This document shows, in pieces, positions 1-12,418 of a DNA stretch of 64,000 bases. A program made the position numbers and the translations under genes. The first letter of the stretch is position 1. Each line of letters starts with the position of its first letter. This stretch comes from Antedon mediterranea (lineage: Eukaryota > Echinodermata > Crinoidea > Comatulida > Antedonidae): NCBI RefSeq assembly GCF_964355755.1, contig NC_092677.1:25886101-25950100 (forward strand), read 5' to 3'. The notes under the pieces were generated by a model. The model had not been told where the DNA came from. It did no database searches and worked only from the letters and a program-made list of their open reading frames with translations.

Positions 1-990
1 TCAGATTTAATTCGATTTTCAAAGGAGAAGAAAAACAATTAATTGGAAGTTGATGTCTGGAAAATATAATGTTGTAAAATAAATGAAATATTGTTTGCTG
101 TATTGAAGTTGAAAGAAATAAAAAGTTGGAAGTTTTTTTATGTTGCATCTTTTAGTTCGATTTTCAATAAAAAGAAGAATATACAATTGGAAGTTGATTG
201 TTGTAGAATAATATCATTTGATGTTGCTGTATATTGAAGTTGAAAGAAATAACAAGTTGGAAGTGTTTCTATGTATCATTTAGTTCAAAAGAGAAAAATA
301 TTCCATTGGAAGACGATTTTTCGAAGGATAAAATATTGTAGAATAAATAAAATATAATTTGATGTTGATATAATGAATCTGAAAGAAACAACAAGTTGGA
401 AGTATTTTTATGTTGCATCCTTTATTAGTTCGATTTTCAATAAAAAGAAGAATATACCATTGGAAGTTGATTTCTCGAAAGATAAAATGTTGTAAAATAA
501 AAAATATCTTTTGATGTTGCTTTATATTGAAGTTGAAAGAAACAAAAAGTTGGAAGTATTTCTGTGTTGTTTTTTTTAAAGTTGATTTTCTAAGGAGGAG
601 AATAATTGATTGATTTATAGAAGTTATACTAATAAAATATCATTTGATGCCATTGTATATTGAAAGTTGGAGCATTTTTATGGATCTGTTTAGGTCGATT
701 TTCTAAGCAGAATAATAATTGATTGATTTCTAGAAGTTATAATGTTATAAAATAAAATATCATTTGATTTCATTGTATATTGAAAGAAACAACAAGTTGG
801 AGCTATTTCTATGATCAATTTTCTAAGGAGAAGAATAATTGATTGATTTACAGATGAAGTTATAAAATATTATAAAATAGAATATCATTTGATGTCATTG
901 CATATTGAAAGTTGGAGCTTTTTCTACAGATCTTTTTCAGGTCGATTTTCTAAGGAGAAGAATAACCAGTTGATTTCTACTTGAAGAAGA
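1..990. repeat. Degenerate tandem repeat, unit about 120 bp
   Basis: The same word order recurs about eight times: a GTTGAAAGAAA segment, ACAAGTTGGAAG, a T-rich stretch with TTTAGTTCGATTTTC, AAGAAGAATA, then AAATATCATTTGATGTTGCTG. Units are diverged and of unequal length. No coding sequence is visible. The array continues off the left edge. Confidence 0.75.
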
Positions 991-998
991 TAATATTA

Positions 999-1162
999 AG
1001 CTCTGTCTACACTATCAAACTTTATGTGACAAAAAATGTGATGTGCACATATATGGACATTATGATGTCATATCACTACCATATTGGGCATATCAGTCAC
1101 TACCATATTTGGGCACATCACATTTTTTTTGTCAAACTAGTTTGATAGTGTGGACAGAGCTT
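999..1162. mobile_element. Family A MITE, full copy
   Basis: The ends are inverted copies of AAGCTCTGTCTACACTATCA, with the right end reading as its complement. Inside are words of the form CATATCACTACCATATTTGG, flanked by a left GTGATGTGCACATATATGG and a right GGGCACATCACATTTTT. There is no coding capacity. About 18 copies or fragments of this family occur in the window; the later entries give only position and peculiarities. Confidence 0.88.
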
Positions 1163-1717
1163 TAGAAATAAAATAGAATCATTGTCATTGATGAATGTTG
1201 AAAGAAATGTTCTATTTGGATGTTTCCAGTCGATTTTTAATAACAAGAACAAATCGCTTCATTTTACAAGGTAAAGATATACATTTTGTTATTATGTATT
1301 ATACTGTAAAGATATAAACCTGCATTCACACTAAGCCAGGATTAGGTCTATGTTATCTTTCTCTAGCACTGTGTTCACACACGTTTTTTTTTACTGAATC
1401 AGAAATGAGTTCATAATACTTGTTTGGCTACACCTATTCCTAACAACTTTTTACTTGTTTATCTAACTAATCCTTGCTACATACATATAAACATACTGTA
1501 GCAATATATAATTTTATTTATTATATTAAATATTTGTTTATATTAAAAGTATCTCTTCTGAGATCCCGCCTCGTGAATAAAAATACTGTAAGATGAGGGC
1601 GTATCAATTTGATCTCTGGTGCGCGTGCGTACAACTGAGGACTAGTGCTGTTCCGCCGTACCACGCCGAGAATGTTAAAGAGTCGCTATCCAATCGAGTT
1701 CGAACAATACCATGAAA
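1163..1717. other. Intergenic, no gene seen
   Basis: A+T-rich sequence with no convincing ORF, splice pair or repeat. A short G+C-richer stretch just before 1718 may be upstream sequence of the tRNA-like gene. Confidence 0.5.
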
Positions 1718-1789
1718 GCCCCAGTGGTCTAATGGTTAGGACATCTGCATATCAAGCAGGCGGTCCGAGTTCGAGTCTCGGTTGGGGCG
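1718..1789 (+). tRNA. tRNA-like gene, anticodon AUC (Asp codon GAU)
   Basis: A 72-nt cloverleaf can be folded. The acceptor GCCCCAG pairs with TTGGGGC (one G:T). The D arm is GTCT/GGAC, the anticodon stem TCTGC/GCAGG closes the loop ATATCAA, and the T arm is CCGAG-TTCGAGT-CTCGG. A run of five T follows at 1792, as expected of a pol III terminator. The anticodon at 1751-1753 is ATC, which would read Asp GAU. Animal tRNA-Asp normally carries GUC, and the body here resembles tRNA-Glu or tRNA-Asp. It could be a functional oddity, a pseudogene or the head of a SINE, because sequence just downstream recurs at 44840. Confidence 0.65.
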
Positions 1790-1834
1790 ACTTTTTCTCA
1801 TTCTCACAGATTTCCTCATCTTTATCGTTTCAAA

Positions 1835-1910
1835 TTAATTAATTAAATTTCAGTATATCACCGTGCGGTTTAGAATTAATGTTCTGTGCCTGATTTGTTT
1901 ATATTAAATA
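1835..1910 (+). repeat. Dispersed repeat, possible SINE tail
   Basis: The segment AATTAATTAAATTTCAGTAT, followed by a GGTTTAGAATTAATGTTCT core and a GCCTGATTTGTTTATAT end, is nearly identical to 44835-44912. Its position 45 bp after the tRNA-like gene suggests a tRNA-headed SINE, but the second copy lacks the head. Confidence 0.5.
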
Positions 1911-3119
1911 TCTTAACATATTTTACCAGTAAAAATAAACAAATTTAAAACATGGTGACATCATTCCTGATGAAGACTTCAATAGGTAGACAAGCATTTT
2001 TGTATAACAATTAATTCTTTTTATTATATTTTACAAAAAGTAAATTGATTAAATCTCTAAATTAATCACCTTCGAGAAACAGCACCAACTTTAAAACATT
2101 ATCTGAAAAAAAAAAAATTTTTTTATTTAATTTATGAATTATGAAAAGGATAAATATGGATCTTGTAGATTTAAAATGTTACGTTTAAATGTGATTTGAT
2201 TTTTGTATTTTTAATTTATTATTACTATGCATTTAAAAAAATTTATTATTTCAGTGCTCGTTGAAACTGCCCCACGTGGCATGAATAAAGAATTTAAATT
2301 TAAAAAATGCGTAACCCGTGCATGGCATATGAACGTACAATTACACCAAGTTTATATAGCGTGATCTTCAACCAAAATTTATATGCATTTTTACAAAGAC
2401 AACATTTCTTGTACTGTATCTAATTTTTGCCAAATTTCATAATTAGGCTCATGGGACTATTTCGGTAGTATTATTGACTGAATTCAAATTGGCATAGTTA
2501 CCTTGTGCATGATTTGTAATGTTATCTTCTTTAAATTCAATTCGTAGTTTCTTCATGGAATTCTCGTCTTCATATCTAATTTTATCCAACAGCACATTCC
2601 TCATTGTAATCCTGACAAAAAGTCTTTAAAGATTTTAATAACTGTATTTAAAATTTTTAATAACTATGTTCACTTAAATACTAATTAAGTAAATTTTAAA
2701 GAGATTTCATCTTTGTGACCAACAGAACCTAGGACTTGCTGTATGACCCACTATACAACCCCAGGAGAGGTGCGTCATTCACAAATAAGGTGCATCAAAA
2801 ACTTAGATGGTACGTCACATCATTGAACAATGGTGCGTCAATGTCCGTCACTTTTTTTGTTTATTTTTTTTAGTATTTCCTATTTGTCACTTTATCATGA
2901 ACAACATGGTCACAGTGTGTGGAAATGGGTGCGTCATGGTCGCCTAAAGACAAGTCACATTTTTGACACACGGGTGCGTCATGGTATTACCCACATCAGA
3001 CAAATGACTCCCGGGGGTCGTATACTGGGCCATACAATTGACAAGTGCATTAAAATATACAGTAATAAATAATAAAATATAATAAAACCAAAATACAGAT
3101 CAATAGAAATAAATAAAAA
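1911..3119. other. Intergenic downstream of AIRIM, no gene seen
   Basis: A+T-rich. Between 2770 and 3000 the word GGTGCGTCA recurs five or six times at irregular spacing. The 80-codon ORF there has no recognisable features and looks like chance. Confidence 0.5.
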
Positions 3120-3710
3120 TCAAGGATACTCTTGACTGAAAATTCTCGCCAGATCTGCTAGCCACTCAAGCATATCGGATATGGAAGGGCAAGTGGCTGA
3201 CCGTTTGATTGCCCTATCTAGCCCCAAGACTTTGTGATGTTTGTTGTACACTTCCATGCTATTGTTATTGATTCGACTCACTTTCTTTTGTATTTCTTGA
3301 AGAGAATGCCTAGTGAAAATAAAAAATATTATTAATAATCATCATGTATCATCAACATGTAGTTATTTAAACAAAATTGTAATAATATTTTTGACAAATT
3401 TCTTTTTTTACATGTTTTCTCTCAGTTTCTTCATCACCACTTCCATGGAATACAGCAGGGATGCGTTAAGTCTATCAGCCAAGTCCGGGAATTGTGCGAC
3501 GACAGGATTATTTGCAGCCTCAACCGCTCTCAGACAGCAGTTTCGCTGTTCAGCCAAGTTCAACAGCGATTCAACCAACACAAGAGATTTAATATTGATT
3601 TCTTTCCACTGCGTTTCTTGTACATTGACTGTTTTAAATGACTTTTTCAATTGTTTTAGCATAACTTCTTCAGCTTCGTTAGCCATCTGTTGTCCAGATA
3701 CTTTATTCAT
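3120..3710 (-). CDS. AIRIM: AIRIM (C1orf109-like) ribosome maturation factor
   Basis: Two exons, 3710-3412 and 3309-3120, encode 162 residues. The donor is AT|GTAAAA and the acceptor CTAG|GC; the junction splits an ATG codon and keeps phase. N-terminal motifs LKQLKKSF, SLLNLAEQ and FPDLADRL, and the C-terminal SDMLEWLADL, match the order and spacing I recall for human C1orf109/AIRIM, about 200 residues long. In vertebrates AIRIM works with the AAA ATPases AFG2A/AFG2B and CINP in releasing factors from pre-60S ribosomal particles. The whole protein looks alpha-helical with no membrane segment. The neighbouring minus-strand transposase-like gene is unrelated. Confidence 0.85.
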
Positions 3711-4190
3711 TGTTGAAAGCTATAATATAAAGAGTAACGTTTTATAGAAATACTACAGGCCCCTAGCCTGAAATCATATCATATTACTCATTTGGCGCTT
3801 CAGTGCACCTACAGAACCTTCTTCTTCCCCCTCCTGCTGCAACAGCGTTTTAAATTAAAAAGAGTACTAGTCTAGACTGTGCAATATTATTATTATATTA
3901 AAAATTCCAAAATGACTAATATTATTATAATTATTATTTAATCTATTATTAATGATTATTATTTATTTAATTGTCCGAGCATTATAAAAAGTAAAGGTTA
4001 GTTTCAAAAATAATAATTAATATTTAAAATTTTTTAAATAAAAATATTTGTCAATTATTGTATTATTTACTGTATGTCATGTTTTATTAATTTTTTTATT
4101 TGTGTTACACAAAGTACCAATCAAATCTCTTTTGGATATTTGGTGGTTCTGAAAAGAACCGTTTGTTTTGTAAAGTATCCTTCATTAAAG
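3711..4190. other. Gap between AIRIM and the transposase-like gene
   Basis: Very A+T-rich spacer with ATT/TAAT runs. It should contain the AIRIM 5' UTR and promoter. No gene is seen. Confidence 0.5.
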
Positions 4191-4196
4191 TTTATT
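4191..4196 (-). terminator. Poly(A) signal of the transposase-like gene
   Basis: AATAAA on the minus strand about 40 nt past the stop codon at 4234. Confidence 0.55.
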
Positions 4197-4233
4197 TTTT
4201 ATTTTTTAGATTTTTCAAGCACGTTGAACGTTT

Positions 4234-7200
4234 TCAGTCCCATATGACTATCAGATCACCACTCTTCATATCCGCAACAATTTCGTCAGTATCCAAATAG
4301 TAATGGTCAACTTCCTTGGTTATTGGGTCCAAATATACAATCTTGAATTCTCCAGTCTCTTCCTTAAATTCAGTTATGTTGCCTTCGTACCATGTATCAG
4401 ATATCACTCCTTCATTATCGTTTGACCACAGGTGATTGATCTTCTTTTCAAGAAGAATAAGGGGGTCCATGATGATGTTCTTGATATGCAGGTCATCCAA
4501 ATCCTCTGAAGACATCAGAATTGAAAGGTTCTCTTTCAATTTTTCAACGGAAAACTGTTTGCCTTTTGACGAAAAACAGAACAGGGATGGATCCGCCTTC
4601 TGATTCAAAATCTTCTTTCGAACATTAAGTTGAGCCTTCAGTGCAATCAGTTGCCTTTTCTTGGATGTTAGCACCTCCAAATTTGAGTTCATACTTATAT
4701 CATTTTGCCATAGTCCACCATACTGCATTAGGTCATTTAGTAGGTTTTCGTTGAGTAGTCTGGCCCTATCTGCCCTACCGATGATTTCTTTCTGCTTATC
4801 ATCAAGATGCTGCTTCTTTTGCATTGTCAATGTCTCACTTCTCTCTGCATTTATCCGTTTACTCCGCAAACACAATATTCTTGCCTTTGACAGTAACTCC
4901 TCTCGTTCTTCTATCGGCTTCATGGCCAACCAATCTGATGTCCTGTTCAATTTATAGACAATCTTGCTTTCAATATAACTTAGGCTTGCATTTGGTGCTC
5001 TTTTCACATAATGGTCTAACAGTCCAAATACTCGCTCTCCGCTTATGTTGTTTCCTACACATGACTTAGCTTGTTGTTTCAATGAATCACTTGGATCATG
5101 ATGTATGCCACCAGGAAGTTGATCGTCCAGTTGTCTCTTACATACATCAATTATAACATCAAGAAGCATCGACAACACAGTTTCAACTTGCTGATCATCT
5201 TCACGAGTTGCAGTCAAGTTATAGAAGACAGCATCTTTAATGATGGGGACATCTGCAAACAAACAATCCGCTTCGCCTTTTACAAGCACCGATGTGTTAA
5301 GCTTCCATTCCTCCATTTTGTTAACAGCAAGGGTGAATGGCATATTTAGGTCAAGAATATTCTGGTCTCTCTCTACCAACCTCATCCATGGACCCGAGAC
5401 ATACTTTCCTATTAGGCCAAGGGCACGGCATCCTGTCAGGTATTCAGCTGTCTTGCTATCAAAAAGTACAGCTCGCTGCAAATCATTAGTAGGAGGCCAC
5501 ACTTTGGTCAGAAACTCCACAATATGGGGCAATAGAAGATGGACGGCTCCAGCATTACGGTACAAGATATGGAACCGGTTTCCCATTATCGGTGATAAGA
5601 TGTTGGTTACCTTTATCCCTTTACGCTTTAAGTATACATCAATTTCCGCAGGCACTCCAACTGCATTGTTGAAACAAAGCTTGCAGACGGCAACGATGAA
5701 ACTCTGGGCTCCACTTAAACTTCTACGACGGAAACTCATGGATTTGTGTTCAGCGGGCAAGTTGTCCTGTTCCCATGTTGAGACTGATTTGTCGCAGGAT
5801 TTTGCGAACGTATCTAATGGATGCATCCCACAAAAAAATTCATTCAGATGTTGGCTTCCAGCTGACATTGATTCAACTAACTCCTTGTTGACAGCCTTGT
5901 TTACGCCACAACGGTCAGTCATCGTGTTAGAAATCTTGTTCAAAATGTGCTGTTTGGAAGTAGACCCTCCTGTTGCTTGGCTTGCTGCCCCTAAATCTTC
6001 AAAGGTCTGTAGTATGCCTTGTGTATTTGCAGAAGCTGTCCCGGATGGAAGTCTGGTTATACCAGTTGTGTAAGTTGCGTCTTGGTCTGCAATCTGCACT
6101 TCTAAGTAATGAGTACCCTTCTTGTTAGTGCCATCATACTTCAGAGTTGTGTCTTTAGCAGATTCCAGCACCTCGCTAACTTGAATTCTTGAGATCTCTC
6201 TCATTTCACGTAGCATACGCAAACAAGTTACTGCATCCGGCAGGATTCCGATCTTCATACAACCAAGTTCCTCAACCGCATACTGTAGTGAACGACAAGT
6301 CATCATCCATACAGACCCCGGAAGAATCACCAATGGAAGTTCCAGCACAGTTGTCTCATCGCACATCCACGCAGATTTCCTAGTCATCTCTCTGACTACG
6401 TTCTTGATTTATAATGTTTCATTCGTATTATATAGTTAAGTTCCGACCATTCAATTTAGATTTTGAGTGCTTTTGCTTGCTTTGTTTTGTTTTTGACTTT
6501 TGTGTTTTATGAGAAGAGAAAAAAAAATGATTACGCCAGTCTAGCGCCCCCTATCTGGGTTGACTCATATATCATGGCCGCTGGTTGTTATGTTATTGTT
6601 GTGATACTTGGTTTTGACGAATAAAGATCTTATTCTACTTGAGTCTTACGTGTCCGGTCGTCTTTATTGTGGTGTGCCTTTTGCCTTACTGGCGTTTGGT
6701 ATGTTTGTTGCTGGAACCTCTTGCTCAAGGCAAAAATACACTGCATTTCTAACGGGCCAGTTAAATGTCTTTCCATCTTTCTTTGTTACAATCTCTCTTG
6801 AAGTTGAAGCAAATGCAGCAATTTCTTCGTTGAGTTTTGTGTTTTCATCCTGTTCAAGCCTTACTTTACTCCGTTGTCCCTCAAGGTTGTCTTCCAGTTT
6901 CTTTATATCTGACTCCAGACTTTCACTTTTCTTTTTATATTTGCTTGTTTGTCTGTATTTCTGTTTTCTTACTGATTGTAGCTGAACTTTCATATTTGTC
7001 AGGTCTTGATCTGCCGGTGTTATTGGTTGTCCCATAGTTGTCTTCATTTTCTTTATTTTCCCCTTCAAAGACTGGATCTGCATATCCTTTCGTCTAATTG
7101 TCTGGTTTAATCGTTTGCAGCTACCAACCCTCTTTACAACTACTTTCGGTTTAACTTCAAGTTGCTTTTTTAGGTCATCAATTGAAGTTTCTAACGACTT

Positions 7201-7656
7201 CATCTCAGCCGCTAACTTTTCATTAACCAAAACCTGCATCTCGCAATCTTTACAAGATGATAGTTGAACGTCTTTATATTTTCGTTTAACAGCTTGCTTC
7301 TGGTTTTGTACAACAGGAATGGAAAATGGTTCAGATAAGAAGGCATCTAACTTTGACTTGTTATTCTTGATTATTTTTCGTCGCATGTTCTTGATACCAA
7401 CAATTTTCGCTCGCAATGTACTGTTCTTTATACTGTTCACGTCAACATTGTTTTGTCCTAAAATCTTGAGTATCCAGGCGATGTGTGTCGAAATTGGCCG
7501 CTTTAGTTTCAGCACAACATCTCGCATTTCAAGGACAGCACCATTAGTAATGTGTTGACCATCAATAAGTTTACAAACGGCATCTTCCTCAAGACTGGAT
7601 AAGTTAATCCCTATCGCATCAGAATAAACACCAATATAATTTTTATCCTCTTCCAT
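4234..7656 (-). CDS. Transposase-like multicopy-family protein, two exons
   Basis: Exon 1 is 7656-6690 and exon 2 is 6395-4234, giving 1042 residues. A 294-nt intron starts GTAAGG and ends GTAG; the junction restores one frame across two otherwise separate ORFs. Residues 1-130 are unassigned. Residues about 165-300 are a Lys/Glu-rich coiled coil. The middle has TTLKYDGTNKKG, ISNTMTDR and NEFFCGMH. The C terminus has a Trp-rich strand region (SDTWYEGNI, VYLDPITKEVDHYYL, KSGDLIV) resembling a small chromo/Tudor-like barrel. From memory, this motif order occurs in uncharacterised multicopy proteins of cnidarians, lancelets and echinoderms. The Asp in YDGT could be the first acidic residue of an RNase-H-fold transposase, but I cannot complete a DDE triad. 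No inverted ends were found around it. An in-frame Met lies 26 codons upstream, but an acceptor-like TTACAG sits just after it. Confidence 0.7.
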
Positions 7657-7903
7657 GTTCTTAAATAAAATTGCCAATAGTTTTAGACAATTTAAAGCCT
7701 GTAAATTAAAGTAAAAATAATACAATTGTAACAATAGATTCTTAGGGTGAATACCATAGTGTTGTTATGCTTACATATAAAATATTAAATAATTTAGTTG
7801 CGAATGAAAATAAAATGGTTATATAATTAAAAAGTCTTATTAGGCCTATTCTATTCCTCTAAAATTATACTTGATAATTGCTATTATGTACTTTATGATT
7901 ATA
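7657..7903. other. Short spacer ending in target-site copy 1
   Basis: A+T-rich with no gene. Positions 7896-7903 are TGATTATA, the left copy of an 8-bp duplication whose other copy is at 12411-12418. Confidence 0.8.
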
Positions 7904-8338
7904 GGATCAGGTGCCGTTTTCGGCCACCTCGACTTGTATGGACTATACCATTATAAAAAGATGGGAAAATAGGGGTGTCCCATTTTTTATTTGAGTGTGC
8001 TAATGTGTTAAAATACTGCTGCTTTTGTTCTTTTGTTTAGTGCATTATGTTTCAGCAACAAAGGGAAAACAACTACGCCCTACACGCTGTAGAATTAATT
8101 TCAGCTTTCAAGTTAATACAGTATATTATGGCTCTTTATTTCTATATAAATTTTAGGTATCATTCCCTAAAATGGATATTAGGTGGATTCCCTAAGGTGG
8201 ATATTGAATACTTTTTACGGATACAGAAAGTATAGGCCTATAAAGAAATTAGTTTTTATTCCAGTTACAAATAAAAAATATAATTTATCTAACGATAACA
8301 CAGTAGTATATTTAACAAAGATGACAGTAGTACATTTA

Positions 8339-8425
8339 ATAAGATCTATCACATACTGATTATTAGGTAATCAGTAAAACAAATAAACATTAAAATTATG
8401 TCAATGAATCTGTACCATTTTGTTC
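8339..8425. repeat. Left subterminal repeat unit
   Basis: Contains GTAATCAGTAAAACAAATAA followed by TTATGTCAATGAATCTGT and CCATTTTGTT, the same unit seen several times at 11518-11870. Confidence 0.7.
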
Positions 8426-8523
8426 CCAGAAAACACAGAACATTTCACGTATTTAAACGTTCTGTGTAGAAATAGGCCTACATGTTCTAATTGAACAACG
8501 TTTGCATCAAAACGTTACAATAA

Positions 8524-8652
8524 CGAATGCAAAAAAACGGAGCTGATAATGTCGCAATGAAGAGGATGATTCATGTCTTCCAATATAGCATGGAATACAT
8601 CGGCAAGCTGTTCGCTGTAGAACGAGTCAAGCAATTGCATAGACAAGCCAAT
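8524..8652 (-). CDS. Small ORF or exon inside the transposon
   Basis: A 42-codon ORF beginning MQLLDSFYSEQLADVFHAIL has protein-like composition. A TATAAAT lies about 20 bases before its ATG, and a donor-like T|GTAACG lies just before its stop, so it may be a first exon. No homology is recognised and no continuation could be followed. It may be chance. Confidence 0.25.
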
Positions 8653-9239
8653 TTATACTTTCCCCGCTCCCAGCACCTTCTCAATTTGGTGATCCCCACA
8701 TTCACTTACTAAATATTCTCAGCCCAACATACAATATCCCCAAATAGAACATCACTGATTAGTAAAACATTCTATAGTACAAATATCCTGCTTTACCCCA
8801 AAGAATTGAGTTTCCTCAAGCAGTCAGCCTTGTATTTAACTTCTTAACTACTCTCTTAAATTCATCGATTGGAAATTTCGATCGTATTTACGTTTGATGA
8901 TTAAAACCAAACTTTTTAGACTGAATATGGTATTCATGAACGTGAAATACGCTCCAGTTGAAAATAAAGTTTCAACTGATAGAAAGTTTGATTACAACAT
9001 CCAATCAGCGCCTAATATATTGTGACGTGAAAGCGCGCGGACAACAAAAGTTTGTCTTCCCTCTCCTCGCTTCCCGCCCGCCTGATCTTCAGAGTCAGTG
9101 TCTTCATGCTCTTCGATCGTATTTTAGATTCTTTGCCTACAATTTACGAGCTACCGTATTCGTAACATATACCAATTGAATCAATATCTATTTTAGAAGG
9201 TTGGTAATCATTTATTTTAAATTGAATCTAAGGCATACG

Positions 9240-9790
9240 CTACATTGAGGCCTACATTCACACCACCACCACCGCGCACATTTTCTGGCCACAGCACAGA
9301 TCTAGGCCTAGTTAGTAGGCTAGTTGACGTGACAGCAGCGAGTGTGGTGTACGGTTACGGCTCGAGTTTATTTTTGCCGGTTACCGAGTTAGGCTATAGG
9401 CCTAGCTAGTGAGTAGCCTAGGTTAAATTTACTAAATCAAATGTGTTATGCCTTGAATATTATTCTATCTAGGGTAGGCTAGGCCTAGCCTAGTTGAATA
9501 GGCATTTCCATTGTATAAACAATTTTAATGAATACTAAAAAAACGTTACTTTGTTGTAATTCTTGATGACGTTCTCTAGGCCTACCCTAGCTAGCCTAGG
9601 CTAGTACTAGCCTAGTAGGCTAGGCCTAACTAGTAGGTCTAGCTGGAGAAGAGCTAGGTCTAATAAATAGGGCTAGACTAGGCCTAGTTACTAAGCCTAG
9701 GCCCTACTTTAATACTATTTCCTAGACTAGGCCCTAGAGGCCTAGCTAGGCCTATAGCTAGAGCCTCTAGTAGGGCCTAGCCTAGCTAGG
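9240..9790. repeat. AGGCCTA/CTAG palindrome-rich block
   Basis: Overlapping TAGGCCTA, CTAGCCTAG and CTAGGCC words follow one another with little other sequence, most densely at 9470-9790. The same word cluster appears at 15120-15370. No coding sequence. Confidence 0.75.
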
Positions 9791-9925
9791 CGTCCTACGA
9801 ATAAATTATGATATAATTAATAATTATAATATTAATAAATAATGACGATAGGCTATACTGTGTATACTGTACAGTACTATAACATTTAGTAGAAACATAT
9901 TATTTCTATCTATTGCACAGGAAAA

Positions 9926-10220
9926 ATGCTTGACTACACAATGTCAATGATGTTTCGGGCTGCAATCATTCACAATAACAACATGGACATCATCTTGAAC
10001 GATTTATATTTATTTTTTGATAGTAAGTAATAATAATATGTTGTGTATCTGTATTTAAATCACTGTATTTATACATGTCAATTGTGTATAAATTCGTGTT
10101 TTTTAAGCTTTAAAACTGAACAGGGACTGGATTAAAAAATATTTCCAACCTAGAAGAAACTACTCGACATACCGACCTGATGCTAGAAAAAGATTGCCTA
10201 ATTATTGGTGGCTTGACTGA
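9926..10220 (+). CDS. Small spliced ORF carried by the transposon, 69 aa
   Basis: Candidate exons are 9926-10022 and 10108-10220. The first exon follows a good acceptor (ATTGCACAG at 9920) and ends A|GTAAGT. The second starts after a T-rich TTTTTTAAG and ends TGA. Phase is kept, giving a basic, aromatic-rich C terminus with WIKKYFQPRR and LPNYWWLD. Further good acceptor/donor pairs at about 10354-10403 suggest a longer transcript. I do not recognise the protein. A different acceptor (AACAG at 10123) would read another open frame, so the model is uncertain. It could be a transposon accessory gene or a captured host gene. Confidence 0.4.
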
Positions 10221-11516
10221 ATCTGAACTAGCCTATTATTTTTACTATTTGTGTTACTATTATTAATGTTTTATAATTTATTTTGTGCACTAGGCCTAAT
10301 GGTCTTGTTATGCTGATTTATATGAAGCATACTATATGTCTCAATCTTCTACAGAGCATGAACCAAATCAGAAGCTGTGAATTTGTTCATTCAACATATC
10401 CATGTAAGCATATTAATTAATACTAATAGTACAGTTTTTATTTTCATTTTAAAAATTACGAATGTCAAAATTTACTTAAATTAGAGAAAAGAGTTTTTAT
10501 GATACTCTTTTCTGATAATATTGAATAGCAAAACTATTCACCGTTGCTTTTTAAGACCATATTGAAAATAAAAAATTATCAATGATAAAGATAGTACAGT
10601 ACTACTACTAAAGATGCGTACATTTATCAAATATTTTATGATAAATAACAGTTTGTTATGCTTTTTGTTATTCTTACAGGATGCAACAGATGTTAGAAAA
10701 TAGTATTCAGGACAAAAATTTGCACAGCCATATTTATTGTCAATTGGATGGTCATCATAACTCAACATGTACTTTCATTCAGACACATTATAGAAGCCAT
10801 GGTTGGGCTTTTATTTAGGCTGCACTATATTTTCCTGAATGATATTTGTGGACTTTGTAGATGCCCTCCCAAGAATTAGGGTATATCACCAAGGCATATA
10901 AGATAGTTTTTGAATTTATAATTATACTACTGAAAGACAAAGACTACAGCAGTGTCTTGACTATTGTAATATACTGTTGTTATGTTCAATAAAATCAAAA
11001 TGGAATATATATAAGAAACGTATCTTTTTTAAGCATCGTATTTAAACAAAAAAGTCAATCGATTTTGGTTGAAAAAATAATTTTTCCAATCTTCTTAGTT
11101 TGAAATTTTTCAATCTTTGAATCGATTGAAAATCTTCAATCGTTATTTCAATCAATCCGATTTGTCCCTACTCACAGTCGGCCAAAAGTTGAAAAATCAA
11201 CCGTATCGATTGAATATTCAGTCGACCAATTTAAGAGAGTATATGATCAACATGTCCACCTATTTAAGCTTTAATCAAACACTACTCCCAGATACTTATA
11301 ATTGTTAACAATCTCTGCCTCCTTTCCTTTAAGTAATGTATACTGTCAGACCAATGTTTTCGAAAATCAATTCTTATTTCTTTCGTTTATTTATGTTTAT
11401 TTCAAGAAAATTGTTGCCATAATCGGTAAATCGAATAATCTCAGAAAGGTACAGAGAATAATCGTATCCAACTATAGCCGAGTCGTCGTATAAAACAAAA
11501 ATACATAATATATATA

Positions 11517-11872
11517 TCGTCAATGAATCTGTTACCATTTTGTTTCTGTATCTACAATCGTTTCATTTATTTACATTTAACATTAAAAGTAAATGTATCA
11601 GGTGATCAGTAGGCCTAAAGAAAACATACATATAATTACGTTAATGAATCTGTTACCATTTTGTTTCTGTATCTACATTCGTTTCATTTATTTACATTTA
11701 ACATTAAATGTAAATGTATCAGTAATCAGTAAAACAAATAAACATATAATTATGTCAATGAATATGAATTGTGTTTCTGTATCTAATTCGTTTTACACTT
11801 AGAATTAAATGTAAATGTATCTGGTGAGGTAAAACAAACAAAAAACATATAATTATGTCAATGAATCTTCAA
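11517..11872. repeat. Right subterminal repeat array, 4 units
   Basis: Four imperfect units of about 100-125 bp contain GTCAATGAATCTGTTACCAT, a TTTCTGTATCTAC segment and ACATTTAACATTAAA. The related unit at 8339 lies near the opposite end of the same transposon. Confidence 0.75.
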
Positions 11873-12418
11873 TTATGTTCGTCTACCGATACCAGGTTCA
11901 AATCCATGATGTTGAGATTTATCCCTTGCAAATAAAAAATATGATTTATCTACCTATCTACTTAGTATTTAAGATTTTCTAATTTCGAATCCGATTGTAC
12001 TAAAATTTAATGTGTTGAAATCAAGAGAGGCATAACATAGTATTTAATATGTTTTAATTTTGATTATACTATAGTGTTTAGGTTAGTTTTTATATATAGT
12101 ATTTAGTAAGTAAGTTATACATAGGCCTAGTTAATATAGTAATATTGTTACAAAATCTTGGCATTGCGTAACACAGTGCCTAATACAGTAATAACATGCC
12201 TTATTAAAAAGTGCATGCTTGCTAGTTTTTGATGTTCTGTATTGTTTCTTGTACAGTAGTTTGTACTGTATGTTACATAACAGAACAATTGTATTGTCTT
12301 CCCATTCAATAGACACCCTTCTATACATAAAACATAATACACACCACACCCCTACCATAATAATGGTATAGTCCATATAAGTCGAGGTGGCCGAAAACGG
12401 CACCTGATCCTGATTATA

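Follow-up and report, generated by a model that had tools for sequence, protein, structure and literature searches.

At positions 7896-12418 of the window, by which we mean the whole 64,000-nucleotide stretch of Antedon mediterranea DNA analysed here, about 4.5 kb of sequence are enclosed by long inverted ends and a short direct duplication. The question raised by this locus is whether the interval represents a single transposon travelling with small genes of its own, as suggested in the original prediction, or more than one element. The 4.5 kb proved to be a 2.1-kb non-coding element split by an unrelated 2.39-kb transposon, and two nested cut-and-paste DNA transposons are the best explanation of the locus, with a probability that we put at roughly 0.95.

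Boundaries and nested structure

Excluding the flanking duplication, the whole composite occupies positions 7904-12410 (4507 bp); the wider interval initially marked delimits a real structure but includes part of the duplication. The 8-bp target-site duplication TGATTATA, established by sequence reading and flank comparison, is present on the left at 7896-7903 and on the right at 12411-12418 and is identical in 8/8 positions, exactly as had been predicted. The left terminal inverted repeat (GGATCAGGTGCCG..., 7904-7954, plus strand) pairs with the right one (12360-12410, minus strand) over 51 bases with a single mismatch (G/A, position 33). The ends had been described as 53 bp long with about one mismatch; they are real and the one mismatch was found, but their true length is 51 bp. 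The tips of the outer element read GGATCAGG...CCTGATCC.

In a genome search with the whole element, positions 1-4507 (element coordinates) were matched by the window copy only. Other loci, L040, L041 and L042 among them, matched positions 1-947 and 3337-4507 contiguously, and at L010-L018 the segment 946-3338 was found alone, with unrelated DNA around it. The empty site in L040 reads TTCTTAAC-TATATGATC, where the window has TTCTTAAC-TA-CTCTCTTAAATT...AATTTAAGAGAG-TATATGATC; from the comparison of the two it follows that a second element entered at a TA and duplicated it (8849-8850 on the left, 11240-11241 on the right). In window coordinates, the left part of the outer non-autonomous transposon (element positions 1-945) lies at 7904-8848 on the plus strand and shares 99.2-99.3% identity with the uninterrupted L040 copies. 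It is followed by the inner transposon of 2389 bp (8851-11239, plus strand) and by the right part of the outer element (11242-12410, plus strand; genome search and L040 comparison), which includes tandem units of approximately 121 bp at about 11497-11832.

A single transposon with interior genes as its travelling cargo would be expected to show good ends and a perfect duplication around all 4507 bp, as are seen here. However, the window holds the sole composite copy, the outer copies have no such interior, which is itself found on its own at other loci, bounded by ends and 2-bp duplications of its own, and the L040 empty site is exact. A single transposon is thus almost certainly the wrong description of this locus, and cargo as the origin of the 4.5 kb is refuted: the supposed small genes of the transposon belong to the separate 2.39-kb element.

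Under nested insertion of two transposons, the 2.1-kb non-coding element with its 51-bp ends would have inserted at TGATTATA and duplicated 8 bp, most likely through a transposase supplied in trans from elsewhere and acting on the outer ends. Later, the unrelated 2.39-kb CTCTCTTAAATT...AATTTAAGAGAG element would have inserted at an internal TA with duplication of 2 bp. We infer this order of the two insertions from the single composite copy. Between the outer sequence of the window and the L040 copies, 5-6 mismatches were counted in 2.1 kb (99.3% identity); between the inner copy and that of L010, 2394 bp contain one mismatch and one gap (99.9% identity). This near-identity among copies indicates that both movements were recent, the inner one especially, which bears out the recent mobility proposed originally; the near-identical inner copies also show that a transposase acting on the inner ends has been active recently.

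The locus had been ranked first as a possible undescribed system, and is instead a nested pair of recent, non-autonomous DNA transposons of an ordinary kind. A false lead is thereby removed, the apparent cargo transposon being a nested pair, a frequent outcome in repeat-rich genomes; furthermore, the two families provide clean material for repeat annotation of this genome.

It should be added that two adjoining long ORFs (724 and 366 amino acids) lie right beside the outer element, at 4234-7764 on the minus strand; a Pfam scan of the neighbouring long ORFs of the window, these two included, gave no convincing match. A tRNA gene at 1718-1789 and a match to the histone 3' UTR stem-loop at 4119-4165 (minus strand) were also observed in the window.

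The outer family and the search for a transposase

A 32-base pattern taken from the outer end, with up to 3 mismatches allowed, was found 153 times in the 354-Mb genome (78 forward, 75 reverse), whereas the same pattern reversed, used as a control, had 0 matches; this frequency is well above what chance would give. The outer element accordingly belongs to a repeated family, and its end is multi-copy rather than single-copy. Inverted ends common to many copies place it in the cut-and-paste (TIR) type, and the two-ended copies examined range from 0.64 to 9.4 kb. The length of the duplication was constant in eight paired copies, where it is a perfect 8 bp (the window, L042, L047, L053, L054, L055, L056 and L058). 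Some of the remaining two-ended copies have a 7/8 match and some an offset of one base, and no recognisable duplication was seen at L039, L041, L045, L046, L060, L068 and L071, presumably because of decay, recombination or nested insertion. In L040 (C8:2712225-2716440), two outer elements stand head to tail, their junction being a fused end CGGCACCGGATCAGG, and this pair is flanked as a unit by ATTGTAAG/ATTGTAAA.

The interior of the 4507 bp contains no ORF of at least 150 amino acids, and its translation in all six frames gave no Pfam match; neither element yielded a transposase. The absence of a recognisable transposase, the non-autonomous character and the multi-copy nature with 8-bp duplications, all put forward originally, thus agree with the genome-wide data. 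Longer relatives, proposed as a possible source of the enzyme, yielded no transposase belonging to the outer family in the copies scanned, and no autonomous relative of either element appeared among them. A six-frame Pfam scan of the 9.4-kb outer copy at L039 gave no match; L053, L055 and L056 (six frames) and L066, L071 and L077 (three frames) contained no transposase except a nested hAT fragment. The domain DDE_Tnp_IS1595 (PF12762) was absent from the outer copies scanned by Pfam, and a Merlin-like motif, defined by a crude self-made pattern, was absent from the loci examined. On its minus strand, the outer relative at L056 has a weak match to zf-RVT (reverse transcriptase), a fragment scoring below the Pfam curated cut-off.

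Positions of transposase domains in the genome were compared by eye with those of the outer copies listed, a comparison that took in about two-thirds of the outer-end matches. The hAT dimerisation domain PF05699 had 101 genome matches, one of which (C4:12693517) falls within the outer copies listed, apparently as a nested insertion, and none of the others does. The P-type RNase H transposase PF21787 (36 genome matches) and the KDZ transposase PF18758 (4 genome matches) were likewise found inside none of the outer copies listed. The hAT match at C4:12693517 is a dimerisation-domain fragment inside the outer copy L077 (C4:12690500-12695100), which was considered as the family's own enzyme and rejected: the block is sharp-ended and is followed again by outer sequence, and near-identical blocks recur at C2:23.69 Mb and C3:17.58 Mb.

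The inner element, its small ORFs and palindromic centre

The inner family comprises some twelve copies, complete or nearly so, with CTCTCTTAAATT ends, which stand alone elsewhere in the genome. As defined by end pairing and copy comparison, the left inverted repeat of the window copy (CTCTCTTAAATT, imperfect beyond 12 bp) occupies 8851-8877 on the plus strand and the right one 11213-11239 on the minus strand. Where both flanks could be read, the duplications are 2 bp long and mostly TA, with TG in L014, CT in L015 and CA in L016; no clear duplication was seen at the inner copy of L018. Diverged relatives occur on C3 (12951-12954 kb), C4 (14176-14178 kb) and C7 (7519-7524 kb). Two inner copies of greater length, one on C2 (5.9 kb) and one on C5 (3.9 kb), might have been autonomous; this reading was rejected, since by their match positions both are normal copies that other DNA interrupts at one point.

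Both the small splice-like ORFs and the palindrome-rich stretch noted originally lie inside the inner element. The palindrome-rich centre (9290-9800) exists and folds well (z -6.0), but word counts show it to be built of TAGGCCTA-type words that are common across the genome. From base composition, 0.6 occurrences of the palindromic octamer TAGGCCTA would be expected in the window; 28 were counted, of which 20 fall outside the inner element. Its density in the retrieved loci, which are enriched for these transposons, is about 1.5 per kb.

The candidate exons at 9923-10024 and 10132-10220 (both plus strand) are real as splice-like ORFs, but the coding selection that a spliced small gene would imply was not seen. 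That the inner element holds a functional gene of this kind would accord with plausible acceptor and donor sites around the two intervals and an AATAAA near 10989, all recognised by eye, and with the detectability of the region in diverged relatives (71-87%). Yet, among inner copies, nonsynonymous changes made up six of the seven changes in exon 1 and three of the four in exon 2, the latter including two stops, both in one copy; in these small numbers purifying selection on the ORFs was not detected. The joined ORF gave no Pfam match and, as judged by E-value, no convincing protein relative outside the inner family. A functional spliced gene is therefore very unlikely. The 2-bp duplications beyond TA, the lack of a recognisable transposase and the possible small spliced gene could also be read as signs of an undescribed transposon group encoding an unrecognised small protein, which we regard as highly improbable.

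Relation to known superfamilies

Merlin ends have been described as starting with GG, being 24-462 bp long and being flanked by 8-9 bp duplications (PMC8101967). The GG tips, 51-bp ends and 8-bp duplication of the outer element fit this description, and since the combination of GG tips and 8-bp duplications is given as the hallmark of Merlin (PMC8101967), the outer family appears closer to that superfamily than to hAT or P. The hAT or P affinity suggested originally had the 8-bp duplication as its sole basis; that observation stands, but Merlin accounts better for the GG tips (PMC8101967). Merlin derivation is the leading guess, held tentatively and at somewhat less than even odds, with the absence of the Merlin domain and motif from the copies and loci described above counting against it.

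A hAT origin, for which the 8-bp duplications and the PF05699 fragment in L077 speak, is unlikely. The L077 block is sharp at both ends and recurs on C2 and C3 with no outer sequence listed beside it, and the rest of the 101 matches lie outside the outer copies listed. Moreover, to our knowledge, GGATCAGG tips are not typical for hAT elements.

Compared with known systems, the outer element resembles non-autonomous hAT and P elements in its 8-bp duplication, inverted ends and internally deleted non-coding copies. It differs from them in its GGATCAGG tips and in that the copies listed contain no transposase of the hAT, P or KDZ type beyond the nested hAT fragment. With non-autonomous Merlin members it shares GG tips, long inverted ends, internal tandem repeats and 8-bp duplications without a strong shared sequence, whereas the IS1595-type transposase of Merlin is absent from the outer copies scanned.

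The inner element has short inverted ends and a 2-bp, mostly TA duplication in common with non-autonomous elements of Tc1/mariner, CMC and ISL2EU. Its TG, CT and CA duplications argue against both Tc1/mariner, in which the duplication is strictly TA, and ISL2EU, in which AT is duplicated within A|AT|T (PMC4482050). As judged by duplication length alone, the 2 bp of the inner element are compatible with CMC, whose duplications measure 2-4 bp.
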